This document shows positions 6,816 to 41,538 of a stretch of DNA of 57,664 nucleotides, one piece after another. Position 1 is the first letter of the stretch, and each line of letters opens with the position of its first letter. The stretch is taken from positions 1-57,664 of the IMG/VR virus record IMGVR_UViG_3300042876_000039; one strand, written 5' to 3'. The notes beneath the pieces were generated by a model. It made no database searches. It was not told the DNA's origin and was given only the letters and a program-made list of their open reading frames with translations. Origin of the DNA: a virus. The position numbers and the translations under genes were made by a program.

Positions 6816-6844
6816 ACTATAACACATCTGTGTTTTTATGTCAA
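6816..6844 (-). promoter_or_regulatory. Early sigma70-type promoter for uvsE
   Basis: Minus strand TTGACA (6839-6844), 17 bp, TATAGT (6816-6821). A small inverted repeat ACACATCTGTGT (6822-6833) fills the part of the spacer next to the -10. Confidence 0.88.
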
Positions 6845-6862
6845 CTATTTACGGATACAACT

Positions 6863-7429
6863 ATGAGAATCAATGAATTTATCAATGAGGGCAAAAAACC
6901 CGGTTTATGGGCAAACATTCACGCTAAACAAAACCGCATTAAAAACGGTTCCGGTGAGAAGATGCGTAAGCCAGGAAGTAAGGGCGCGCCTTCTGCACAA
7001 GATTTCAAAGATGCAGCAAATGAAGCAGCCAATCCAGCACAACAAGCTGCCATTGCTATTAGCAAAAAAGAGCAAGATGTCTCAGAAGACTGGCAAAAGG
7101 TCAACAAAAAGGACAAAACTGACGGTATGAGCAAGAAGGCTGTCAAAGCCTATCGCCGTGAGAATCCAGGTTCTAAACTAAAGACCGCTGTCACAACTAA
7201 GCCTTCAAAATTAAAGAAGGGCTCTAAGAGTGCAAAACGCCGTAAGAGTTTCTGCGCACGTATGAGTGGAATGAAAAAGGCTCATGCAAGTGCTAAGACT
7301 AAACGAGATCCGGATAGCCCAATCAACAAAGCATTGCGCCGTTGGAACTGCGAATCAGTAGAACAACTACAAGAATTGGTAATGATCGCCGAACAATATA
7401 TAGCAACAAAAAAGAAAGAATTGAAATGA
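6863..7429 (+). CDS. Small basic late protein with capsid-targeting-like tag and SFCARM...RRWNC domain
   Basis: 188 residues from ATG 6863; an in-frame ATG at 6830 lies upstream but would add 11 residues before the tag. The N-terminus MRINEFINE|G has the T4 internal-protein pattern ending in I-N-E. The rest is Lys/Ala-rich, with a C-terminal domain KSFCARMSGMKKAHASAK and INKALRRWNC that I recognise as common in tailed-phage head-associated proteins (DUF6321-like). The high positive charge suits DNA contact inside the head. It opens the plus-strand late cluster and is coupled to the next gene by ATGA. Confidence 0.8.
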   Translation: MRINEFINEGKKPGLWANIHAKQNRIKNGSGEKMRKPGSKGAPSAQDFKDAANEAANPAQQAAIAISKKEQDVSEDWQKVNKKDKTDGMSKKAVKAYRRENPGSKLKTAVTTKPSKLKKGSKSAKRRKSFCARMSGMKKAHASAKTKRDPDSPINKALRRWNCESVEQLQELVMIAEQYIATKKKELK

Positions 7430-9207
7430 ACTTCAAAGAACTATACGAAGGCGCAACGCCAAAACTACCCGGAGCGTTTAATGGCGTTCAAGTAATGACA
7501 CCTCAGCAATTTGTTGCTAAAGCAGGTGATATGGCAGGTGAAGAAGTTGATGAAGGGTATCCCAAACATCAAGACTTGAGTGGTGTCAGTACTGACAAAC
7601 TCAAAGCATATCTTGCTAAACAAAGTCAGCAATCAGTGCCGGGTGAAGGTAGTCAGGTCAAGCGTGTACAAGCTGAATTACAGCGTAGAAGTCAAGGTGT
7701 GGAGGAAGGCATCGGCGATACTATTAAGCGCGGAGTCAAGAGCGTCAAGCGTGGTATGCAGGGTTGGGGGCAGTTAAATGATGTGCCGGACGATGACCCA
7801 AGATTGTTACCTGGGGCTAAAGATACACCAAGACAATTAGTGGCACGTAACAAAGGCTATGATGACAAAACTGTAAAGCAATTAGCTCGTCCTGTTAAAT
7901 CAAGTTTCCCGTTCGGTGGTGATGATACTACAAGTCCGCATAGCCCAAGAGGATTGCAAAAGCGTGTATTAGATCGTGAAATGAAAAAACGCGGACTGGA
8001 TGAGCAAGGTGTATCTGAAGGTGAAGAACACCTAGCAAGAATTCGTAAACTATCTGGCTTAGAAGAAGCAACTAAACTGCCAGCACAAAGTCGTGACTTA
8101 GGTGGCCAAGAGTTTCAAGACTACATGAAACGTATTCAAGGTACTCCTGACGTAGACAAAGCTGGTAACGTTAAAGTAGACAAGAAGGGCAACGAGAAGT
8201 ATGTCACTGGTAAAACAAAGACAGACAAGTACAAGATGCCCTATATCCATCGTTCAAGTGTTATCACATACTTGAGTCCTGATGGCAAGACTTACAGTGA
8301 AGATGCTATTAAAAAGACGCTAGCAATTCGTCCTAAAGCATTGTTAAAGCAGAACGAAAAGATGAAGCATTCTAACGGAGAGTTTGAACAATTCTTCAAC
8401 GTTGGTTTCGCAGCATTGACGGGAATTGCATTAGACGAACAAACTAACAACCTAATCATTGTAAACACATGCCCAGGCGCTGGTTCATGTAAAGTTGATT
8501 GCTTCGCTATGAAGGGCGGTAAGGTTCAGTTTAAGAATGCTTGGCAAAGTGATGGCCGTATCTTAACATATCTATTGAATGATCCAGATGGCTTCTTCAA
8601 TCAACTAAGTGCAGAGATTACAAAAGAATCTGAAGCAGGTAAAAAGGGTGATAAGAAGTTCCCTGGTGGTTGGAATGTAACAGTTCGCTGGCATGATGCT
8701 GGTGATTTCTTTAGTCCAGAATATCTAGACTTAGCATTGAAGATGGCTGCAAAGCATCCTGATGTTAAGTTCTATGCTTACACAAAGATGGCTGGTGCTG
8801 CATTAGCTAAGAAGCCAGACAACTTTATCATCAACTGGTCAGAAGGCGCAAGCTCAAGTCAAGAGAAACAAGTTAAAGCACAAGATCCTAACTTAGAACA
8901 AACTAAGAATAGTCGTATCGTTCCTGAGAAGTTATTCTATGACTTGTTAGCTAAAGACGAGAAGGGTAACTTAGCTAAAGGACCTGCTGGTCAATGGCAA
9001 CCTGCTAGCCCAGAAGCATTGAAGCAAATGAAACAGCGTATTGCACAAGCATACAACATCAGCCCATCAAGTATCTTGTCATATGACGAATATACAAGCA
9101 AGCCTAAAGTCGCTGGTATGAAGTACAACGTTATTGTAGCTCCAGGTGAAGGTGATATCAGTGCTAACGATCCTAACGTACTAAGCACATTGTTGTTGAG
9201 ACACTAA
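7426..9207 (+). CDS. GP88-like protein with multi-site tagged N-terminal half
   Basis: 593 residues from ATG 7426, overlapping the previous stop as ATGA; an earlier in-frame start (7342) lies inside the previous gene. The N-terminal half is low in structure and carries candidate protease sites: ELYE|G (residue 8), QGVEE|G, QGVSE|G and GLEE|A. The C-terminal half from about residue 250 has CPGAGSCKVDCFAMKGG and VRWHDAGDFFSPEYLDLALK, the signature of the phage GP88 family, with three clustered Cys residues. The family's function is unknown. The Cys cluster could hold a metal or iron-sulfur centre. Confidence 0.75.
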   Translation: MNFKELYEGATPKLPGAFNGVQVMTPQQFVAKAGDMAGEEVDEGYPKHQDLSGVSTDKLKAYLAKQSQQSVPGEGSQVKRVQAELQRRSQGVEEGIGDTIKRGVKSVKRGMQGWGQLNDVPDDDPRLLPGAKDTPRQLVARNKGYDDKTVKQLARPVKSSFPFGGDDTTSPHSPRGLQKRVLDREMKKRGLDEQGVSEGEEHLARIRKLSGLEEATKLPAQSRDLGGQEFQDYMKRIQGTPDVDKAGNVKVDKKGNEKYVTGKTKTDKYKMPYIHRSSVITYLSPDGKTYSEDAIKKTLAIRPKALLKQNEKMKHSNGEFEQFFNVGFAALTGIALDEQTNNLIIVNTCPGAGSCKVDCFAMKGGKVQFKNAWQSDGRILTYLLNDPDGFFNQLSAEITKESEAGKKGDKKFPGGWNVTVRWHDAGDFFSPEYLDLALKMAAKHPDVKFYAYTKMAGAALAKKPDNFIINWSEGASSSQEKQVKAQDPNLEQTKNSRIVPEKLFYDLLAKDEKGNLAKGPAGQWQPASPEALKQMKQRIAQAYNISPSSILSYDEYTSKPKVAGMKYNVIVAPGEGDISANDPNVLSTLLLRH

Positions 9208-9208
9208 G

Positions 9209-9772
9209 ATGCGTGATCTGATTCAGCTACTTGAGGATAAGTCAAAGCCTCAAGATATAGAAATCATCGCTCTTAACTTTGAGCCAAAAGATGTAAGTCC
9301 TGTGTTGTCGAAAGACACACTAGACTTGCACTATGGCAAGTTAGCGCATGGCTATGCTGAACGATACAACAAGAAAGAGGGCGATAGAGAGTTTAACTAC
9401 GCAGGCGCGTTCTTACACAATCTATTGTTTACTCAGTTTCGTGAAGTCAGAAACAATAACAAACCAAATGGTCCCGTTGAAAAACTAATCAACTCTCGTT
9501 ACAAATCATGGGACAACTTCAAAGACAAGTTTCTAGAAGAAGCAATGAAGATTGAAGGCAGTGGCTGGGTATACTTAGCTACTGATGGTAGCATCAAGAC
9601 TATCAAGAACCACGATGTTCGTGATGACATTCTATTGTTAGTAGACTGGTGGGAACATGCATGGTTGCTTGACTACGAATCGAACAAAACTAAATACTTA
9701 AAAGAGCAGTGGAAGATCATCAATTGGAATGTAATCAACACTCGCTGGGGCAAGAATTATGAGAGCAAATGA
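9209..9772 (+). CDS. sod: Superoxide dismutase (Fe/Mn type)
   Basis: 187 residues. Metal ligands of the Fe/Mn-SOD family are in place: H41 (LDLHYGK), H70 (AGAFLHN), D146 and H150 (VDWWEHAWLLDY). The family stretches GSGWVYLATDG and INWNVINTRW are also present. It converts superoxide to oxygen and hydrogen peroxide. The N-terminus MRDLIQLLE|D resembles the tags of neighbouring late proteins and precedes the catalytic fold. There is no signal peptide. It follows the GP88-like gene by one base and overlaps the next gene. Phage SODs are rare; the late setting suggests the enzyme may travel in the virion. Confidence 0.88.
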   Translation: MRDLIQLLEDKSKPQDIEIIALNFEPKDVSPVLSKDTLDLHYGKLAHGYAERYNKKEGDREFNYAGAFLHNLLFTQFREVRNNNKPNGPVEKLINSRYKSWDNFKDKFLEEAMKIEGSGWVYLATDGSIKTIKNHDVRDDILLLVDWWEHAWLLDYESNKTKYLKEQWKIINWNVINTRWGKNYESK

Positions 9773-10616
9773 ATTTCTAAATGAGACACAAGAACTAGAC
9801 GAAATCGAAAGATTACGTCCAAATGACTATGCAGGCGGCAAAGAAAGTCTATACGATAAGCAAGTTGGCAAGCAGGTAAAGAAACTACCAGGTGGTAGTG
9901 GATTTCTTTATTCTACTAGTGAGGGTCGTTGGGGTGGTACTGATATCAAACTTTGGGATCCAAACGGTAAAGATTTTATTGCTCAAAAAGAAAGAGGTGT
10001 TCAACCTAAACCAGTGCGTGGCCAAAGAGAGTCGAGCTTCAGTTACGACCGTAGACTTTGGGATTGGCAAAGAGCACAACGTGATTTGAATACACCAGGT
10101 CAATTGATCGGCAAGTTGTCAGTTAGCAATGCTAATGATTTCCCATTAAAAGGTGCAGTACAAGTTGACACTATCACTGTAGATGAAGATTACCGTGGTG
10201 TAGGTCTTGCTAAAGCATTGTATGGTATCGTGTTAACTATCATGAAGCGTCCATTAGTCGCAGGATCAAGTCAAACGCCCGGTGGTCGTAGAAACTGGGT
10301 CAGTCTTGCTGGCATCCCCGGAGTAGAAATGAAGGGTTATATCAAGTTCGAAGAAGACGAGTTAGATGCTGATCCAAGAATAAATGATATGAGGTCCACT
10401 AAACAAGCGAACCAAATAATCGATACTGTCATGGGTCAATTAGGTGGACAATATATTGGTCGTGGAAAATATGATGAAGAATTCTTTGCGTTTGACGTTA
10501 AGCCAAATACAACAGGTACAGAATTAGAAGCATACGTTAAAACCAAATTGAATCCTGTATACGGTAACTTCAACTCATCTACTGGCTTATACGCTATCTG
10601 GACTGGACCAGCATAA
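9759..10616 (+). CDS. Tagged GNAT acetyltransferase-like protein
   Basis: 285 residues. The N-terminus MRANEFLNE|T fits the capsid-targeting pattern. Residues about 125-165 hold the GNAT acetyl-CoA motif (VQVDTITVDEDYRGVGLAKALYGIVL, with the R/Q-x-x-G-x-G/A loop as YRGVGLAKAL). Substrate unknown. The start overlaps the end of the SOD gene by 14 bases and its stop is coupled to the next gene. Acetylation of a host protein after delivery is an inference. Confidence 0.7.
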   Translation: MRANEFLNETQELDEIERLRPNDYAGGKESLYDKQVGKQVKKLPGGSGFLYSTSEGRWGGTDIKLWDPNGKDFIAQKERGVQPKPVRGQRESSFSYDRRLWDWQRAQRDLNTPGQLIGKLSVSNANDFPLKGAVQVDTITVDEDYRGVGLAKALYGIVLTIMKRPLVAGSSQTPGGRRNWVSLAGIPGVEMKGYIKFEEDELDADPRINDMRSTKQANQIIDTVMGQLGGQYIGRGKYDEEFFAFDVKPNTTGTELEAYVKTKLNPVYGNFNSSTGLYAIWTGPA

Positions 10617-12193
10617 TGAGAGCTACTGAATTCATCACCGAAGAAGCTAAAAACGCTAAGTACAATGGATTGACGTTGAAGTACGCATTCAATGACCGTG
10701 CATTGATTATGAAGGCGTTCGAGCCTATTACTAAAAATCCACTAGCTTATGTTAAGTTCGTAAAAGAAAACGAAGAACTATATCCACAGGATCTTTGGGT
10801 CAACGATGAATATCGCAACAAGGGCATTGCCAAGTCGATGTATGACTATCTAAAAAGTGAAGGCTATGTCATCAATAGAAGTCACGACCAGACTAAAGCC
10901 GGAGCCGGCTTCTGGGATAAGCATCGTGGTGAGGATGCATACGTTTGGGAAGACGAAAAGTTAGACGAACTATTTCAACCCGGTAAAAACTGGGAATGGA
11001 CGTTTCGAGGTAGCGAAGAAGCTGTTGCCGTCTTTGACATTGGAGATGTTGAATATGTGTTTCATGCATATGGACCAGATCCGATATGGGAAGTTGGATT
11101 TAGACAACGTGAACAAGCAGAATGGGACAAAGCATTTGGACTAACTGGCACTGGTAATTCAGCAGAAGTCATGAGTACTGTAGTTGATATCATGCGATCA
11201 TTTTTAGCCCAGTACAAAGACAAAATAGGAACATTGGTATTCAGTGCAAAGGAAGATTCGCGCCAAGGGTTATATGCTAGAATGGTTAAACGACTACTAC
11301 CCGACTGGACTATGAAACAAGAAGGTCAAAGTTTTATACTCACCGCTCCTAAACAAGTAGATGAAGAAATTACAGATGAAATGGCTCTTAAACAGTTTAC
11401 CCCAATAGGTGACTTTGAGAAGCCAGGACCATTTAAAGCAGTTGATAAGCGTCTAGTTCAACACCAGACTAATCAATTAAAGGCTGAAAAATTCTTTGAA
11501 CAAACGCCATATGATTTCAGATTGTTTTTCAGCAACATTCCAGGTACTGGCAAATATGCTGAAACTGGTCCAGTCAATGCGCAACAATTACAACAAATGT
11601 TTGGCCCTGAATATGCCAAGCAAATTCTAGCTGACAGTGAAGATGCTATTACCGTTGTATTCGTAGGTAACAGTGGTGCAGACAAAGTAATGATTACTCC
11701 ATGGATCATGGCACATAGATTTGGTCATGCGATTCAAGCAGGTGCAAGGCGTAACCAAGGATGGAGTACATGGAAAGAAGCTGAAAAGCATTTCTTTACC
11801 ACAGTCAATACTTTGTTGGCAGACTACTATCGCAAACAGTCACGCTCTAGTGGTAGACAGCATGACATGCAAGGTGATCTAACACAAGAATACAACGCAC
11901 TATTCAACGCACTTGGTACCCAACGTAGCAGTCGCACCGGACAGATCAAACGTCCGTACGAATTCTTGTATGAGATATTTGCACAATATCTAAAGACTGG
12001 TGAAGTTACCTTTAACCCATTACCGCAGCGTATAGATTATGGTAGAAAAGCATGGGGTACTAGCACCAAGGGTATGTCTGCACAACCAGGAGCAGAAGAC
12101 TTACGAGACATGGCAGAAATTCTTGCAAGAGATATGCAATACATGTTTGATGATGTATTGTCTAGCTCAGTAGGTCAAGTCTTTGTAATGTAA
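10616..12193 (+). CDS. Tagged multi-domain protein: GNAT, LF domain, HRFGH-containing domain
   Basis: 525 residues. Order: tag MRATEFITE|E; a compact GNAT-like domain to about residue 114 (LWVNDEYRNKGIAKSMYDYL); candidate site KLDE118|LFQP; a second domain to about 245 that closely resembles one in the GH19 protein at 37454-38545 (TLVFSAKEDSRQGLYARMVKRLLP); candidate sites QVDE250 and ITDE; and a long C-terminal domain with MAHRFGHAIQ, which resembles a metalloprotease helix (H-x-x-x-H) without the usual Glu. Last gene of the plus-strand cluster; it meets the opposing gene end to end at 12193/12194. Confidence 0.7.
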   Translation: MRATEFITEEAKNAKYNGLTLKYAFNDRALIMKAFEPITKNPLAYVKFVKENEELYPQDLWVNDEYRNKGIAKSMYDYLKSEGYVINRSHDQTKAGAGFWDKHRGEDAYVWEDEKLDELFQPGKNWEWTFRGSEEAVAVFDIGDVEYVFHAYGPDPIWEVGFRQREQAEWDKAFGLTGTGNSAEVMSTVVDIMRSFLAQYKDKIGTLVFSAKEDSRQGLYARMVKRLLPDWTMKQEGQSFILTAPKQVDEEITDEMALKQFTPIGDFEKPGPFKAVDKRLVQHQTNQLKAEKFFEQTPYDFRLFFSNIPGTGKYAETGPVNAQQLQQMFGPEYAKQILADSEDAITVVFVGNSGADKVMITPWIMAHRFGHAIQAGARRNQGWSTWKEAEKHFFTTVNTLLADYYRKQSRSSGRQHDMQGDLTQEYNALFNALGTQRSSRTGQIKRPYEFLYEIFAQYLKTGEVTFNPLPQRIDYGRKAWGTSTKGMSAQPGAEDLRDMAEILARDMQYMFDDVLSSSVGQVFVM

Positions 12194-32115: not shown

Positions 32116-32796
32116 TTATTGGAAGATTTGAGGATGAGCTTTACCGAATATTTTGATGTACTTACCTGCCATCATATCGGCTTCTGCTTCGATTGGGCTA
32201 CCTGGGTAGCTGTCGCCGGGTTGAATCATATTAAGTTCGCTTTGGCGACAGTGAACTAATTCGTGAAATACGGTGCGCATGATATCAACCATATTGCGAT
32301 TCTTTGCGTATACCCAAACTTCATTTGAGCCTTCAACGTGACGACCAGTATGATGACCTTCTTGAGCTTCTTCTGTGTCGTAACTGAATTCTACTTTTGG
32401 AGTTGTTTGTAGATTTAGTTTCTTAGTTGTCCATGCAATGAACTTACGCATGGTAGGGTCGTTGTTTAGATCAGGTTCGCTATCTTCTGATAACTCATCT
32501 TGATTGGGAACATGTCTTGGAGTTAGCTTACGTAGGCCAGATACTTCACCTCGACCAACACCAACATTTTCTTCGTTAGTAGTGAGTTCGTCTAGTTTAC
32601 CCTTAATCCAGTTGTCAGGAGTTCTACCAAACTTCTTAACAAATAAGTCATGTAATGCTTTACCATTGATGCCATTCTTCTTTGCGACATTTTGCATCAA
32701 TTTGTCGATGGTATTATAGTCGTGCTTGGCTAGACTAGGAAGTCTTTTGGCTAATTCAGTAGCAGGGGATTCGGATATAAACTCTTTGTAACGCAT
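32116..32796 (-). CDS. Tagged zinc metallopeptidase-like protein (HELVH)
   Basis: 226 residues. N-terminal tag MRYKEFISE|S. The C-terminal part carries TVFHELVHCRQ (residues 178-182 as H-E-x-x-H) and, 20 residues on, IEAEADMMAGKY, the glutamate of a gluzincin-type zinc site. Other (L)-x-E points occur (KLDE70, ELSE104). It probably cuts proteins; the target is unknown. A late-type box ends only 4 bases before the ATG. If packed in the head, it must be kept from cutting virion proteins. Confidence 0.78.
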   Translation of the reverse strand: MRYKEFISESPATELAKRLPSLAKHDYNTIDKLMQNVAKKNGINGKALHDLFVKKFGRTPDNWIKGKLDELTTNEENVGVGRGEVSGLRKLTPRHVPNQDELSEDSEPDLNNDPTMRKFIAWTTKKLNLQTTPKVEFSYDTEEAQEGHHTGRHVEGSNEVWVYAKNRNMVDIMRTVFHELVHCRQSELNMIQPGDSYPGSPIEAEADMMAGKYIKIFGKAHPQIFQ

Positions 32797-34852: not shown

Positions 34853-35830
34853 TTAATCCTTCGATAAGTCTATCTTACTTAGTACTGGTAAGAACGATGC
34901 TCGTAATTCTTCCATGTGCTTCTTTAGACCTGCAGGAGTTAGTTCATCTTCTGCGTAGAAGATAACGTTTGCATCAGTGTATTCTTTATATTCACTGCTA
35001 CGAACGGCTGCACTGAATTCTTTCTGATACCAAGCAACGATTTCTTTATCAGTGCCAGGTGGCAACTGAATAGACCATGCAGCATATACATTGATACCAG
35101 GAGCTATTGTATTCAATAGAGGCACATTAGGAAACTGAGCCATTTTACGTGTTCCAGTGAATCCAATAGGCTTAACTTTACCACCGTCGATCAATGCTTT
35201 AGCGACTGCGATTGGCATGATACCAAATTCAGTTCCAGTCTTACCGTCATAGCTTGCAACACTTGTCACTGCTGGCATAGGTCCGTTAAACTTGATACTC
35301 TTAACAGTATCTTTATTTCCCTTACCCTTTTCCATCAAGTATTCAAATGCTGTTCTATGGGCTCCGCCACCGATAGCAACGTTAATTGATCTACCTGACT
35401 GAATGTATTTGACAAATTCTTGTGGTGTGTTGATGCCACTCTTTGGACTTGCAACCAATACTAATGGGCTCTTGCCCATTGTCAGTACATCTACAAAACT
35501 ATCATAGTTGTATTTCTTGATGTTCTTTTCCCAAATATCATTAGTCACATATGAACTCATGTGGCTTGGTAAGTTGATTGTGTATCCATCATTAGGAGCT
35601 TCTAAAAACTTATTGTTAGCGATAACTGAATCTGCTCCTGGAATGTTCTGTACAACATACACGAACTTTGGATTAGATTTCTGTACAATCTCTGCTAGTT
35701 TACGAAAGGCCATTTCGTTTCCTGCTCCGGGTGTATTACCAATATAGACTTGTACTGGTTTCGTTGGCTCCCACGCAAATGAAAGTAATGGTAATGCAGC
35801 TAATGCAAATGCGGTTAAAAGTTTTTTCAT
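34853..35830 (-). CDS. Tripartite tricarboxylate transporter substrate-binding protein (Bug/TctC family)
   Basis: 325 residues with a signal peptide (MKKLLTAFALAALPLLSFA|W). The Bug fold is clear: VQVYIGNTPGAGNEMAFRKLAEIV, VVQNIPGADSVIANN, GYTINLPS and VKPIGFTGTRKMAQFPNVPL. Such proteins capture carboxylates in the periplasm for TTT transporters and are greatly expanded in Burkholderiales, which suggests the host. No TctA/B genes are near, so it would have to work with a host transporter or have taken another task. Probably acquired from a host; its codon use has not been compared. Confidence 0.9.
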   Translation of the reverse strand: MKKLLTAFALAALPLLSFAWEPTKPVQVYIGNTPGAGNEMAFRKLAEIVQKSNPKFVYVVQNIPGADSVIANNKFLEAPNDGYTINLPSHMSSYVTNDIWEKNIKKYNYDSFVDVLTMGKSPLVLVASPKSGINTPQEFVKYIQSGRSINVAIGGGAHRTAFEYLMEKGKGNKDTVKSIKFNGPMPAVTSVASYDGKTGTEFGIMPIAVAKALIDGGKVKPIGFTGTRKMAQFPNVPLLNTIAPGINVYAAWSIQLPPGTDKEIVAWYQKEFSAAVRSSEYKEYTDANVIFYAEDELTPAGLKKHMEELRASFLPVLSKIDLSKD

Positions 35831-35910: not shown

Positions 35911-36639
35911 ATGAACACTAAAATTTTTAAGCTAGTCAAAGAAAATTTAGAGCTTGCCTTTAATTTACCAAAGTACGCAAAGATTTCTATTGATGAAACT
36001 ACTGTGGTACAAGACTTACCTTGGACTCCTGCACGTTATCGCAAGTTCAAAGATGCAGTAGAAAACGAACTAAGTTTGCCCTGCGACTATGTTGGCACAT
36101 TGAAAGATATCGTCAATGACTTGAGTGAACGATATATCTTGCGTTTCTTTAGTGAGATTTGGAAGCCACGCACCGGTGATTATGAACATACCGGTTGGGA
36201 ACTAGCTGATGAGATCAACAAGTTGAACCCAAAGAAAGTGCTAGACGTTGGTTGTGGGTATCATCCATTCAAGGGTCGTATTCAGAATCTGATTGGCATC
36301 GATCCTTATAACAATCAAGCTGACTATGAAGTTGATATTCTAGACTATAAGGTCAAGCCTGAATCACATGATGTTATCATTGCGTTAGGATCTATTAACT
36401 TTAACTCACGTGATGAAATCGAATCACGCTTTGAGCATTGTGTTAACTTACTAGAGAAGGGTGGCAAGTTCTATCTAAGAGCTAACCCAGGCATTACCCA
36501 TAAAAACGGACCATATGTTGAAATTTTCAACTGGTCCTTTGAAATCGTAAATGAGTTTGCTGAGAAATACAATCTAAAGTTAGAAACTTACAAGAAAGAT
36601 GCTAACGACAGATTGTACTTTGTATACACTAAACTTTAA
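35911..36639 (+). CDS. SAM-dependent methyltransferase (class I)
   Basis: 242 residues. KVLDVGCGYHPFKGRIQNLIGIDPY is SAM motif I with the acidic end of strand 2; DVIIALGSINF and NLLEKGGKFYLRANPG are later motifs. Small-molecule or sugar substrates are usual for this type. A lone plus-strand gene that ends head-on with the nuclease gene (overlap of four bases). Confidence 0.75.
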   Translation: MNTKIFKLVKENLELAFNLPKYAKISIDETTVVQDLPWTPARYRKFKDAVENELSLPCDYVGTLKDIVNDLSERYILRFFSEIWKPRTGDYEHTGWELADEINKLNPKKVLDVGCGYHPFKGRIQNLIGIDPYNNQADYEVDILDYKVKPESHDVIIALGSINFNSRDEIESRFEHCVNLLEKGGKFYLRANPGITHKNGPYVEIFNWSFEIVNEFAEKYNLKLETYKKDANDRLYFVYTKL

Positions 36640-37457
36640 TCTTTTGCACTAGCACCGCACTTAGTACGTTTCATTTTAGTCAAGTCACCAAAGTTAACAG
36701 GCCATTCTTGGCCTGGTGCCACTTCTTTTGCATTCTGAGGGAATGCATACTTAACCCCTGCTTGTTGCATAATTTGTGCGATTGGAGCACGGAACTTAGT
36801 CAAGTCATTACCTAAGTTAACATATGGTTTAGTGTGAGGGAACTGCCATCCAGCAACTTCACCTGTTACTTGATTGATAACGATCTTGTAATAACCATGA
36901 GGGATGATAATGCCTTTGAATGACTCATCACCTTGACCGTAGAATGCACCAACATAGATAGTGAATGTTTGATTACGCTGTACACTCCAACCACGTACAC
37001 TAGTCTCTAACAATTTCCAGATACCACGATTCAATGAACCATGTTGTGGGTACATGTTAGTCATCAAGAATGATTCATATTCTACAATCTGACTGTAAGA
37101 TAGGTCCCCATCCGGTGCCGCGTGTCCCTTGTCGTATCCTGTACCAACATAGTCGTCAGGTCTTGCACCTGTACCACCTAAGGATTGGTCAGCCACGAAG
37201 GCGTTTGTTCTCGGAAAGCAACCTAATGCGTTTTCTGGCTTCAACGTATATGCTACGTAAGCAGGAATTTTAACAGGAGCGTCATATGCAACTAGATAAG
37301 CCTCACGGCAGATTGGTTGTACATTACGTTGTGTTTGCGCAAAGCCGTAAGGGCTATGTACTTGACATTGTTGTGGTTGCAATGGGGCACGTTGGTCCCA
37401 CGCAAATGCTTGAGTTGATGCTAGTAAGGCAACTGTTGTTATTATTTTTCTTATCAT
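36636..37457 (-). CDS. Secreted DNA/RNA non-specific endonuclease (NUC1 family)
   Basis: 273 residues with a signal peptide (MIRKIITTVALLASTQAFA|W). The active-site motif of the Serratia-nuclease family, D-R-G-H, appears as GYDKGHAAPDGDLS (D-K-G-H) with LMTNMYPQHGSLNRGIWKLLE supplying the Asn for the metal and the usual Q-x-x-x-N-R-G pattern. The Arg to Lys change in DRGH is unusual but conservative. It would degrade nucleic acid in the periplasm or outside the cell. It is coupled by ATGA to the GH19 lysin gene. Confidence 0.85.
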   Translation of the reverse strand: MIRKIITTVALLASTQAFAWDQRAPLQPQQCQVHSPYGFAQTQRNVQPICREAYLVAYDAPVKIPAYVAYTLKPENALGCFPRTNAFVADQSLGGTGARPDDYVGTGYDKGHAAPDGDLSYSQIVEYESFLMTNMYPQHGSLNRGIWKLLETSVRGWSVQRNQTFTIYVGAFYGQGDESFKGIIIPHGYYKIVINQVTGEVAGWQFPHTKPYVNLGNDLTKFRAPIAQIMQQAGVKYAFPQNAKEVAPGQEWPVNFGDLTKMKRTKCGASAKD

Positions 37458-38545
37458 ATGATTCGCATGTAATCTTTAAAGTTTTCGTGTCTATTTTCTA
37501 ATCCCTTTGCTGCAGGATTAATCTTTTGTGTAACTGCTTTTGTATCAGCAAAGTTTTTAATTCCGGGCTTTACTCTAGTATTCCAATACCATACTGCTAC
37601 TTTAGCTGCGATATCAGGACGTGCTGCTAGTTCAGGTTTGTTTAGTAAATCGATGCCCAATGCATCACTTGCCATGCGATAGTTATCACGACCGGTCAAT
37701 TGTATAAAGCCTCTACCGTGATATCTTTCTCCGTCGCCAACATGTTTGTTACCTAAAATCTTTGCGGTTCTAGGTGCGAACTTAGGATCATACTTCTTGC
37801 TGAAATAGCCTTTAACACCGGGCTGTGGTTTCTCTTTTAATCTATCAAAGTCCCATGACTCGTGTTTAGTCTGTGCCATAAACTGTGCTAGTTCAGCACC
37901 CTTCATCCCTGCTGCTTTTGCTGTCTTTAATATAACAATCTCGTTCTGTGGATTGTTACTCAATATATTGTGTCCAGGAGTAGTATCTCGTTGAATTGGT
38001 TGCTGAATTGTAGGCTGAATTGGCTTTGCAGCCGCCGCGCCAGCAGCCAAACCTGCTAACCCACCTAGAAAACCCCTACGAGTAATATTTTCTTCCAAAT
38101 CTTGATGTATCAAAACAAAATCACTTGGGTTTAATGAGATGCTATTGTGTACTTCCTTCGGCAAGTCATTGATGTTACCTATCGCATAACCAACTGTCGG
38201 TGCTAAACGCTTAACCATTTGAGTATACAATGATTTTCTGTTTGCTTCTTTAGCACTGAATATAAGATAGTTAGGTGCGTATCGTTCATCATACTCTTTG
38301 ATTGCATTAACAACTGTAGCGAATACAGTGAATTGATCGCCTTTGTTTGTTAAGTTGTATGATTCATCAACCATGAAATCAATTTCAACTGCGCTTTCTG
38401 GTAATTGCCAAAAATGAATCTCTATTTTTTTATTTGTATTAGGATCGAAAGCGTAGGCATATACTGCACCCATGTTGCTTTCCCACTCAAGTGGTAGTCC
38501 ACCTTTTGGTGAGAATAGTTCAGTGATGAATTCGTTCGCTCTCAT
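37454..38545 (-). CDS. Tagged precursor: LF domain, Tat-like signal, GH19 lytic domain
   Basis: 363 residues. Order: tag MRANEFITE|LFSP; LF domain to about 145 (YLIFSAKEANRKSLYTQMVKRLAP), shared with the protein at 10616-12193; candidate site DLEE152|N; a twin-arginine segment at 156-173 (TRRGFLGGLAGLAAGAAAA); a Pro/Gln linker; and a GH19 chitinase/lysozyme domain from about 195 with KHESWDF (Glu229 as likely acid) and ERYHGRGFIQLTGRDNY. GH19 domains cut chitin or, in phages, peptidoglycan. Cutting at 152 would place the Tat-like segment at a new N-terminus. It may be an entry or export-dependent lysin. Confidence 0.82.
   Translation of the reverse strand: MRANEFITELFSPKGGLPLEWESNMGAVYAYAFDPNTNKKIEIHFWQLPESAVEIDFMVDESYNLTNKGDQFTVFATVVNAIKEYDERYAPNYLIFSAKEANRKSLYTQMVKRLAPTVGYAIGNINDLPKEVHNSISLNPSDFVLIHQDLEENITRRGFLGGLAGLAAGAAAAKPIQPTIQQPIQRDTTPGHNILSNNPQNEIVILKTAKAAGMKGAELAQFMAQTKHESWDFDRLKEKPQPGVKGYFSKKYDPKFAPRTAKILGNKHVGDGERYHGRGFIQLTGRDNYRMASDALGIDLLNKPELAARPDIAAKVAVWYWNTRVKPGIKNFADTKAVTQKINPAAKGLENRHENFKDYMRII
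38018..38098 (-). other. Tat-like signal segment after a candidate protease site (GH19 protein)
   Basis: Residues 150-176 of the GH19 protein: L-E-E, then N-I-T-R-R-G-F-L, a hydrophobic Gly/Ala/Leu run and an A-A-A end, the form of a twin-arginine signal with signal-peptidase site. It is internal in the primary product. Confidence 0.6.
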
Positions 38546-39084
38546 TTTATCTTAGGGTTTCCAAATACTGTTTCAGTTACTTTAGCGCCACCTGCTAATT
38601 GTCTAACATACGTATCATCACTAATCATCTTTAGATTAGGATCATTGAATAGATATTGTAGATATTTTTCGTCAGTGACTGCTGGAACACTTAGTTTCTT
38701 CAATAAATGACGCATAGCATCACTTGATTCGATCCATACACCTGGCTTGCTTAATAACTGTTGTATTTTATTTATTGCTTTGTCTTTGCTCGTTCTAGTA
38801 CCATCGTGGCCAATGCCTTGAATCTTATAACCTACCCAATTTTCATTACTACGATTAGTACGATAGAAGACACATGAGTCTACATCAGGATCTTGATCCC
38901 AATCAATTACGTTCCAGTCACTAGGAATAACATCTTTGATTGAGTTAACAAATGAACCCTGTGGTGTATTTGAATATGCATGTCTAACAAGGGAAACCAG
39001 GTCAGTGCCTAGTTCTTCTTTGTCCCCATTAGATACAATGAGTTCCCATTGATTCTTGGGCAATTGAAACTCATGCAGGCGCAT
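38542..39084 (-). CDS. Conserved phage protein, possible GNAT-like fold
   Basis: 180 residues. It begins MRLHEFQLP, similar in its first residues to the tags but without the final I/L-x-E. GDKEELGTDLVSLVRHAYSN, then VIPSDWNVIDWDQDPDVDSC and VGYKIQGIGHDGTRTSKDKA are patterns I recall from phage proteins of unknown role; the last resembles a GNAT pyrophosphate loop. Coupled to the GH19 gene by ATGA and to dps by a one-base overlap. Confidence 0.55.
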   Translation of the reverse strand: MRLHEFQLPKNQWELIVSNGDKEELGTDLVSLVRHAYSNTPQGSFVNSIKDVIPSDWNVIDWDQDPDVDSCVFYRTNRSNENWVGYKIQGIGHDGTRTSKDKAINKIQQLLSKPGVWIESSDAMRHLLKKLSVPAVTDEKYLQYLFNDPNLKMISDDTYVRQLAGGAKVTETVFGNPKIK

Positions 39085-39524
39085 TACTCACGTTCTTTCT
39101 TTAAGATAGAACGAATCATCCATGACTTCTTAGCGTAGAAGTCTTGTAATTCAGCCATGTAGTTAGCGATACCTTGTTGACGTTCAGCCGTAGCAACATC
39201 AAAGATAGCAACTGCTAATTGAATCATCTTGCCGCAATCTTCTAGTGATTCAGCGAACATTAGTTCAGCACGTGGAATCTTTGTTTGATCTCCAATGACT
39301 GATAACTCAGCATAGCGAGTTAAACTTGCAGGAGCATATGCACCAAGTACTCTGATGTACTCAGCAATTCTATCTACTGTTTCATATGATTCTGTGTAAA
39401 GATCATTATAGAATTCGTGATATTGTGGGAAGTCACTTCCCTCAATATTCCAGTGGAAGTTACGAGACTTCAATGAGAATGTCTCAGTCGAAGCGAGTAA
39501 TGTTTTTAAGTTATCTGATAGCAT
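39084..39524 (-). CDS. dps: Dps/ferritin-like protein
   Basis: 146 residues. SLKSRNFHWNIEGSDFPQYHEF is the Dps signature with the ferroxidase His and Asp; YTESYETVDRIAEYIRVLG holds the Glu. Dps proteins store iron, remove peroxide and coat DNA as dodecamers. With the superoxide dismutase at 9209-9772 it gives a two-step defence against oxygen radicals. A late-type box ends four bases before the ATG. Location in the virion is possible. Confidence 0.85.
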   Translation of the reverse strand: MLSDNLKTLLASTETFSLKSRNFHWNIEGSDFPQYHEFYNDLYTESYETVDRIAEYIRVLGAYAPASLTRYAELSVIGDQTKIPRAELMFAESLEDCGKMIQLAVAIFDVATAERQQGIANYMAELQDFYAKKSWMIRSILKKERE

Positions 39525-39546: not shown

Positions 39547-41538
39547 TTATTTAAGACCTTTCAGAATGGCAGATTCTTTTACAGGCACACAGTTGTTAAC
39601 TCTAGTGTCACCCTTCATCTTAGTGCCTTGCTTTTTATAGCCTTTCCAGCATGATGGATCTAATCGTTGGTCTTCTGCCACACCTTGCTGTTTACCGCGC
39701 CCAACACTACCATCTGGTTTTAGGAACAAGTCAACCCCGTATTGCTTGTTGTCGTGATTGATTTTATTCATACGACCTTGTTTGAAACCTTTAGCAAAGT
39801 ATTGCTTATACATACCACTATGTTGACTATGCCAGTAGTTTATCTTCATGGCCATTTCTAATGTAGCACCATCAGCAAGACTTACACCTTTTATAAAACC
39901 ATCTTCTTGTGCCATCTTGGCAATGTCCGGACTGAATCCTTCATCGTCATCGCCACCATTGAATCCATCTGGAGCGAATTCGTTTAGTGAGCCTTCCGCC
40001 ACACCTTGCTCGCCACGCTCTGCTTGACGCTTTGCCCAACGTGCTTTATTCTTTTCCACTTGAGCAGGGCTTGCCTTCTTCTCTTTGCTTAGTGCGCGGT
40101 CCAATGCTTTGTGCAGTACACTCACACCATGCTTAACAACATCCTTAGGCTTAGCAATGCTATCTGCACCTAATGTTACTTCAGGCTGACCTAACTCGTA
40201 GTCATCGCGGCTACCATATTTGCTGTTACTCTTTTTATCACGGGTGCCATTATAACCCTGTGAGTCCATTTCACGCATCAAGTGAGGGTTCTTACGTTGC
40301 TCTAAGTCAACTAAGTCAGCATTCAATTGACCCATTGTCAATCCATACTTACCACGCTTTAAATCTTCAATGACTTCAGGGTGTGCGTTTAACCATTTAC
40401 GCATTTCAGGAGACATCTTGCCTGCACGAATAGCATCTGCATAGCTTGACAAGAACTTGATGTATTCTTGTTTGTCTGCATCGTTAGCAACAGATCCATC
40501 ACCACGAGGACTACCAGCTGTACCGTGAGGTACAAATGGTGTACCTGGTCTGAATGTAGCATGTGGTGCAGTAGATGCACGTGCGCCACCTGAACTTGCG
40601 TGACCACTGGATGCATGACCACCTGAACTAGCGTGACCACCACCTCCACCGTGGCCTCCGCCTCCGCCACCACCTTTAGCCATAGCGTTACCGGCCATAG
40701 CACCTAAGGCTGCTGCACCCGCGCCCTTTAAGAAGCCTCTGCGATTCAAGTCAGCTTCTGCTACACCTTGCTTTAGACGCTTGCCAGCAATAACTTCAAT
40801 GCCGTTGATTTCTAAAGGATACCAATCCTGAGCCGCTAAAGCATCAAATATATCTTCTAAAGAACTGGCTTTCCATTTTAGTTTTGTTGGCTTCTTTAGT
40901 GCGTTGCCTTTGTCAAGTGCTAATATGTTATAAATATGTTCAGAGCCTTCCGCCACACCTTGCTCTTTAGTTGGATTAACTGGCACTACTTTATATCTGC
41001 GAGTCTTTTCATCCCATACAGTTTTCATAGGACCTTGTTTAGCACGTTGTCCTACACGTTTAACCATCGCTTGATATTCTGGACCATAGTCTGCTTCACC
41101 TTCAGAAAGACCTTCACGCTTTTTCTGACTTACTACTTGATGAATAGCCTGAAATGCTTCATTATCTTTTTTGTGTTGTGCTAATAATTCTTGATTATTT
41201 GGTGGTAAATGTTTTTTAGCATCAAATGATAGTGATGATCCACGCAACTTATCATAGATTGCTTGTCTCTCTTGAATTCGTTGAAGAATTTCAGCTTGTA
41301 GTTGTTCTAACTCACTAACTGAAAGATTTTGGTAAGGTGCTAGACTAGCTCGATACTGAGCGATGCGTTCTTGTTTTTCAACATCACCCATCTTAACGCC
41401 AGCGTTATAACCACGTTGATATTCGTTTGATTCAGGACCATAGATAGAACTAGCACGAGGATTAGCTTGACCACGCTTACCATCACTCACACCATCTTGA
41501 TATGCACCTTCGGTTAAACCTCTTAAAATACTGCTCAT
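39547..41538 (-). CDS. Multi-module precursor protein with repeated QGVAE sites and Tat-like signal
   Basis: 663 residues. Six candidate sites split it: GLTE10|G, GLSE146|G, QGVAE197|G, QGVAE261|A, QGVAE515|G and QGVAE622|D. The fragment 262-515 begins A-D-L-N-R-R-G-F-L-K-G, a strong twin-arginine signal that runs to NAMA287, followed by Gly/His/Ser-rich low complexity and a helical domain. Other fragments are small charged domains; the last (623-663) is DPSCWKGYKKQGTKMKG plus CVPVKE, a module I recall from ends of other phage proteins. It lies in the late block below the gene at 41540-42295. A polyprotein of internal head peptides is the simplest reading. Confidence 0.75.
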   Translation of the reverse strand: MSSILRGLTEGAYQDGVSDGKRGQANPRASSIYGPESNEYQRGYNAGVKMGDVEKQERIAQYRASLAPYQNLSVSELEQLQAEILQRIQERQAIYDKLRGSSLSFDAKKHLPPNNQELLAQHKKDNEAFQAIHQVVSQKKREGLSEGEADYGPEYQAMVKRVGQRAKQGPMKTVWDEKTRRYKVVPVNPTKEQGVAEGSEHIYNILALDKGNALKKPTKLKWKASSLEDIFDALAAQDWYPLEINGIEVIAGKRLKQGVAEADLNRRGFLKGAGAAALGAMAGNAMAKGGGGGGGHGGGGGHASSGGHASSGHASSGGARASTAPHATFRPGTPFVPHGTAGSPRGDGSVANDADKQEYIKFLSSYADAIRAGKMSPEMRKWLNAHPEVIEDLKRGKYGLTMGQLNADLVDLEQRKNPHLMREMDSQGYNGTRDKKSNSKYGSRDDYELGQPEVTLGADSIAKPKDVVKHGVSVLHKALDRALSKEKKASPAQVEKNKARWAKRQAERGEQGVAEGSLNEFAPDGFNGGDDDEGFSPDIAKMAQEDGFIKGVSLADGATLEMAMKINYWHSQHSGMYKQYFAKGFKQGRMNKINHDNKQYGVDLFLKPDGSVGRGKQQGVAEDQRLDPSCWKGYKKQGTKMKGDTRVNNCVPVKESAILKGLK
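39989..40011. repeat. 23-bp direct repeat, copy 1 (codes for QGVAEG linker)
   Basis: Identical to 40943-40965. On the coding strand it reads E-Q-G-V-A-E-G-S. The codon choice is kept as well as the residues, which suggests recent duplication or recombination of modules. Confidence 0.85.
40677..40755 (-). other. Tat-like signal segment after a QGVAE site (precursor protein)
   Basis: Residues 262-287 of the precursor: A-D-L-N-R-R-G-F-L-K-G, an Ala/Gly/Leu hydrophobic core and A-M-A at the end. It is the best Tat consensus in the window and would be N-terminal only after cutting at E261. Confidence 0.65.
40943..40965. repeat. 23-bp direct repeat, copy 2 (codes for QGVAEG linker)
   Basis: Exact copy of 39989-40011, 954 bases away. 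Partial copies lie at the other QGVAE sites near 39680 and 40760, and in the GP88-like gene near 7695. Confidence 0.85.

Follow-up and report, generated by a model that had tools for sequence, protein, structure and literature searches.

Organization of the GH19 gene

The window, as we call the whole 57,664-base IMG/VR virus record that was analysed, contains on its minus strand an open reading frame (ORF) whose 363-residue product joins unrelated domains, a GNAT-like fold and a GH19 peptidoglycan hydrolase, in one chain. Its features are as follows (↓, predicted cut).

37454..38545, minus strand: whole gene, with a capsid-targeting start, GNAT-like domain, predicted site, Tat-type signal and GH19 lysin
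38519..38545, minus strand: MRANEFITE, capsid-targeting-sequence (CTS)-like start, residues 1–9, resembling T4 ipII/ipIII MKTYQEFIAE
38099..38518, minus strand: N-domain, residues 10–149, GNAT-like fold with a weak DUF6934 match
38090..38098, minus strand: predicted head-protease site L-E-E↓N, residues 150–152; relatives have [ILV]xE where the same modules join
38027..38089, minus strand: NITRRGFLGGLAGLAAGAAAA, Tat-type signal with an A-rich c-region, residues 153–173 (TIGR01409)
37457..37951, minus strand: GH19 peptidoglycan hydrolase domain, residues 199–363 (PF00182, phrog_181 endolysin, Foldseek)

Comparison with translated T4 ipIII revealed a short N-terminal leader ending in L/I-x-E, and further proteins, both in the window and in relatives, share starts of the MRANEFITE type. 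An AF2 model examined with Foldseek assigned a GNAT-like fold to residues 19–147 with fair confidence; in the relative L156, the homologous N-domain starts right after KINE. The linker formed by residues 150–193 is disordered (AF2 pLDDT about 30), and residues 199–362 adopt a GH19 endolysin fold (Foldseek matches 7r6s, 9ms7 and 4ok7), with PF00182 matching residues 211–327 at 1.1e-14. In alignment A1, E229 is invariant and E238 nearly so, and their catalytic role is assumed here from the GH19 family.

A Tat-type signal follows the predicted LEE↓N site

Positions 38018–38098 (minus strand) translate to LEENITRRGFLGGLAGLAAGAAAAKPI, which corresponds to residues 150–176 of the ORF. The order in the protein is the LEE↓N site in the disordered linker, then RRGFLGGLAGLAAGAAAA, then the GH19 lysin. 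A cut at LEE↓N would leave N153 as the first residue, with R156-R157 three residues on. The NCBIfam model TIGR01409 (TAT_signal_seq) matches residues 154–172 at 17.9 bits (curated cut-off 16.7), and the S/T-R-R-x-F-L motif, a moderately hydrophobic core and an AxA end are all present (ITRRGFLGG...AAAAK). An earlier note on this DNA had placed L-E-E↓N three residues before T-R-R-G-F-L in a GH19 protein, which the translation, the TIGR01409 score and the PF00182 match confirm; its reading of the RR segment as a Tat-type signal ahead of the lysin is supported by TIGR01409 and by comparison with relatives.

Among related phages, seven of the eight internal Tat segments have [ILV]xE 2–4 residues before RR, where 4–7% would be expected per protein. 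The corresponding probability is about 1.5e-8 if the cases are independent, although shared ancestry means that independence is overstated. The sequences upstream of these sites are mostly unrelated to each other. A chance look-alike of a Tat signal was rejected on the basis of the TIGR01409 match and the site frequencies (7/8 here and 34/36 in the homologues described below). We consider it likely that the LEE↓N site is cut, and put the same confidence in the RR segment being a working Tat signal.

The signal lies at residue 153 of the translated chain and becomes N-terminal only given a cut at LEE↓N. The further claim that the full-length chain cannot make use of it is not established, because the Streptomyces Rieske protein has a working internal Tat signal (PMC13186574) and several relatives carry theirs nearly at the N-terminus. 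Since internal Tat signals can work uncut (same source), cutting may not be needed for export.

GH19 homologues in related phages

In the IMG/VR relatives, the Tat-GH19 module occurs in two settings. It stands directly behind a capsid-targeting start in L003 (MRATEFISE↓DISRRGFLGG), L154, L156, L157, L160 and L165, and it is internal in the window (LEE↓NIT), L007 (VLE↓DLT) and L117 (GVAE↓DIS); the distance from E to RR is 2–3 residues throughout. Proteins of the L003 type have the Tat signal at residue 13, near the N-terminus and behind a 9-residue leader. A capsid-targeting-like start is found on nearly all of the 36 GH19 homologues scored, and 34 of them (one, L114, solely via a doubtful site at MRIYE) have [ILV]xE no more than 9 residues from an export-like segment, defined as either Tat or a "GWKD" Ala/Gly segment, for which about 13% would be expected each. 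Most homologues carry the latter, RR-less type (for example, LDE↓GWKDVAVGAAMGLGALGATNAAA), which lies at the same place, is weakly hydrophobic and may represent a Sec or SAR-like signal; Tat is therefore not the sole solution. Some GWKD types have LysM-like segments between the signal and GH19. Proteins in which the GH19 motif is lacking (L324:18175-19566 and L019) can also carry the hydrophobic GWKD segment, following a VDE/VEE site.

In most homologues a hydrophobic Ala/Gly segment lies at a similar position but lacks RR, as could be expected if the segment, packaged and freed as proposed, were not an export signal at all and instead served as an inner-membrane or head/neck anchor or a flexible Ala/Gly linker, the lysin then acting during DNA entry like T7 gp16. 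Lysozyme domains of injected multidomain proteins have indeed been proposed to breach peptidoglycan at entry (PMC5512222). Against this, RR and the following F/L are kept across unrelated cargoes while the Arg codons vary, Tat profiles match at or near their cut-offs, and several of the Tat segments in relatives have AxA-like ends. We regard this alternative as unlikely, albeit the most probable of the three that we weighed.

A survey of homologues for I/L/V-x-E next to RR, as the earlier note had proposed, upholds the association in the seven internal segments given above and also yields exceptions, namely IAD in the L008 lineage and TRE, a weaker site, in L114; L016 has TDE. The L008 lineage (near-identical contigs L008–L010 and L013) retains RR and has IIAD↓DIS in place of [ILV]xE, and Asp at the cut position inhibits processing of T4 IPIII (PMC9026906). 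This is the one occurrence of the case named in advance as refuting, RR with no protease site before it, yet the Tat segment there has also lost its TIGR01409 match, and the capsid-targeting start (MRATEFINKE) is degenerate at its own site. Site and signal thus appear to have been lost together.

Among 50,697 phage records of named isolates, the matches listed cover at most 46% of the GH19 query, that is, its GH19 half, and neither the CTS-Tat peptide nor the Gly-rich Tat module found a match. A scan of bacterial genomes gave GH19 enzymes aligning mostly over the GH19 domain. Matches to cyanophage and Motura entries, known by annotation only, also turned up.

Predicted protease sites coincide with module junctions

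We matched the 80-residue stretch that follows each capsid-targeting cut against every other protein collected, having first removed from the query set a plain GH19 and further sequences with false CTS starts. The module behind a leader recurs internally elsewhere in 44 distinct cases. The junction carries [ILV]xE at exactly the expected position in 30 of these cases and E in 39, whereas other offsets average about 0.7 [ILV]xE each; because the query excluded the cut residue, the alignment cannot have forced E at the junction. Modules thus switch between leader-adjacent and fusion-internal positions with the E↓ junction retained, as one protease acting on both would yield.

The candidate enzyme is a gp21-type (S77) prohead protease. 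In T4, gp21 cleaves behind L/I-x-E, and cargo bearing the CTS is packaged and delivered (PMC9026906). All six large relatives (338–525 kb) encode an S77 protease, and in all six a gp23-type capsid protein has LAE↓S or LAE↓A where its cut would be expected. The LEE↓N site is recognizable, from homologues and the AF2 model, as a conserved module junction equivalent to a CTS cleavage site and located in a disordered linker. As to the attribution of the cut to the head protease, the gp21-type enzyme is encoded by the relatives, but no gp21/S77 prohead protease gene was found in the 57.7-kb window.

Other proteins of the same design

The window encodes a second such protein upstream of the GH19 gene.

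39547..41538, minus strand: second protein of the same design, 663 residues, with several GVAE sites and an internal Tat-type signal
40756..40764, minus strand: V-A-E↓A site, immediately preceding the internal Tat-type signal of this protein; homologous sites are DVEE↓VS in L070 and GVAE↓AGID in L313
40678..40755, minus strand: ADLNRRGFLKGAGAAALGAMAGNAMA, second internal Tat-type signal, residues 262–287 (PF10518; conserved in L070 and L313)

This protein reads QGVAE↓ADLNRRGFLKGAGAAALGAMAGNAMA (QGVAE↓ADLNRRGFLKG, residue 266), and PF10518 matches it at 20.6 bits, slightly below the cut-off of 22.7. Homologues of the module reside in otherwise different proteins (L070, DVEE↓VSRRGILKG; L313, QGVAE↓AGIDRRGFLKG), in L313 about 1,010 residues into the open frame. 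Pattern searches for RRGFL(K/G)G, run without requiring a protease site, recovered the design with other cargo: L091/L098 combine MRFKEILE↓DMSRRGFLKG with LysM and an SLT transglycosylase, and further examples are found in L093/L102, L088 and L095. One module stands behind a capsid-targeting start in L100 but behind SLQE deep in an 834-residue ORF in L137. By contrast, Tat proteins of phages without a capsid-targeting start (MN-RRGFLKG type) have no site. The same searches also gave non-Tat RRGFF/RRGFL in long ORFs resembling portal and tape-measure proteins.

RRGFLKG Tat signals are common among bacterial proteins, and the modules are mosaic, so the arrangement could have arisen by capture of a bacterial Tat-exported hydrolase behind a CTS, leaving the signal as a functionless remnant. 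The recurrence of the arrangement with several cargoes unrelated to one another, and a short spacing that divergent homologues retain, make such a relic improbable in our judgment, and it ranks as the least credible of the alternatives.

Cargo, separate endolysins and the adjacent nuclease

The recognizable cargo fits the periplasm or wall (GH19, LysM with SLT, and the LysM-like segments of some GWKD types). Three of the related genomes (G002, G004 and G018) encode an additional plain GH19 endolysin of 207–219 residues with neither CTS nor signal; G016 has a plain GH19 alone, and G005 one GH19 in all. Because of the separate plain enzyme in the former three, the head-tagged GH19 is unlikely to be the lysis enzyme. 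Searches of the six large relatives recovered no Peptidase_M15_4 or SLT, and Phage_lysozyme solely within long ORFs of 804–1034 residues.

These observations bear on the possibility that the GH19 protein is an ordinary late lysis enzyme, exported via Tat in the producing cell and holin-independent, its CTS-like start and N-domain being incidental. Sec and SAR signals have precedents among phage endolysins (PMC6116005), and a nearly N-terminal Tat signal such as that of L003 could work uncut. Nevertheless, the plain GH19 endolysin alongside it, the conservation of both the CTS and the E↓ junction, and the position of the window's signal at residue 153, behind a folded domain, leave this a rather poor prospect. 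As the whole explanation, a late endolysin is weakened by the second GH19 in relatives.

Immediately downstream lies a nuclease gene.

36636..37457, minus strand: DNA/RNA non-specific (NS) endonuclease with a Sec-like signal (MIRKIITTVALLASTQAFA), overlapping the GH19 gene (PF01223, 3.9e-35)

A nuclease with a Sec-like start is found at the end of the GH19 gene in eight relatives. An NS endonuclease occupies the place in the window, L003, L004, L005, L008, L011 and L155 (PF01223 was tested for the window and the genome of L004, and the others were assigned by similarity of their starts), and a SNase-type protein does so in L007 and L153 (PF00565 was tested for that of L007). The SNase-type protein has no relation to the NS endonuclease whose position it takes, as though selection had acted for a periplasmic nuclease of whatever family. 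Also nearby are a TctC/Bug-type periplasmic solute-binding protein with a Sec-like signal (34853–35830, minus strand), a type whose presence in a phage suggests a Burkholderiales-like host, and a Ferritin/Dps-like protein (39084–39524, minus strand) encoded two genes ahead of the GH19 gene on the upstream side, similar ones lying close to the corresponding position in G002 and G004.

A model for head-processed, exported effectors

The reading that we favor, somewhat better than an even bet, is that the GH19 protein is a virion-delivered, protease-trimmed, Tat-exported peptidoglycan hydrolase, a dual-addressed head-packaged effector. By analogy with T4, the MRANEFITE leader would take the protein into the prohead core. 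A gp21/S77-type prohead protease would then cut behind FITE and behind LEE-152, as the comparison strongly supports, parting the GNAT-like domain from a GH19 lysin that starts N153-I-T-R-R-G-F-L. The pieces would be injected with the DNA, as are T4 internal proteins. Finally, judging by signal and cargo, the lysin fragment would fold, be recognized and exported by the host Tat system, and attack peptidoglycan from the periplasm early in infection, where the separately made and probably Sec-exported nuclease may act together with it. We put export of the injected fragment with a periplasmic effect at even odds or slightly better.

The earlier note had left open whether the enzyme would act early or late. 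Proteases of the gp21 type work within proheads, which makes an early effect, in the infection that follows, more likely than late lysis. T4-type particles carry 20–200 copies of a fusion protein (PMC9026906), which would be a small number if the entire wall were to be affected enzymatically. Our guess is that the benefit lies in local wall remodelling around the entry point or in interference with later phages.

Head processing would in this manner sort fused domains, one remaining cytoplasmic (or leaving the head as a propeptide) and the other becoming periplasmic. The long N-terminal part could be either such a propeptide, for which the long propeptides of SPN3US offer a precedent (PMC10052503), or a second delivered effector. 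The dozens of relatives compared suggest that phages build injected enzymes in this way to reach the host wall from inside. More tentatively, and with somewhat less than even confidence, we propose that in giant T4-like phages the head protease serves as an address switch, with injected effectors built as cassettes whose [ILV]xE cuts expose Tat RR or Sec/SAR-like GWKD labels that sort the pieces between cytoplasm and periplasm via host export.

Relation to known systems

The T4 internal proteins IPI–III and Alt, which are CTS-packaged, gp21-processed and injected, are alike in the MxxxEFIxE↓ leader, the L/I/V-x-E cut, the S77 protease (here in relatives) and presumed delivery with DNA, and the GH19 protein is plausibly a member of this CTS-targeted class; the CTS-like leader is what points to its injection with DNA. 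T4 internal proteins are not known with an export signal behind the cut, whereas the present proteins include peptidoglycan hydrolases, Tat-type signals and fused domains. The polyvalent proteins found in phages and conjugative elements (PMC5512222) are similarly multidomain, injected and likely processed, with GNAT, ParB-like and lysozyme domains. They differ in that here gp21-type sites join the pieces, GH19 is a lysin and a Tat-type signal lies at the junction; the term "signal peptide" is absent from that paper.

Secreted and SAR endolysins such as fOg44 Lys44 and P1 Lyz (PMC6116005) are also phage lysins whose own signal uses host machinery, but these are late lysis enzymes with N-terminal Sec or SAR signals, whereas the window lysin is CTS-tagged and Tat-type, with a plain endolysin alongside in relatives. 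Virion-associated lysins, including T7 gp16, are likewise peptidoglycan hydrolases carried in the virion and released from the head; T7 gp16 forms part of the ejection channel when it acts in transit, whereas the signal of the window lysin would imply a return from cytoplasm to periplasm. In the open-access papers searched, we found no head-protease cut described as unmasking a Tat signal.

T4-like internal head proteins are known as injected cytoplasmic effectors. If the model is correct, a head-trimmed class with a newly exposed label for host export would imply targeted enzyme delivery by virions, to a particular compartment of the host, and the conserved [ILV]xE junctions within many giant-phage proteins would gain a role.

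Further candidate head-processed proteins in the window

The ORFs at 39547–41538 (minus strand) and 7342–9207 (plus strand) contain QGVAEG/QGVEEG/QGVSEG repeats that look like repeated head-protease sites, which would yield several pieces. Capsid-targeting-like starts were also seen at 9759–10616, 10616–12193 and 6830–7429 (plus strand) and at 32116–32796 (minus strand); two of these four proteins have weak GNAT matches, and they are probable further head-packaged effectors.
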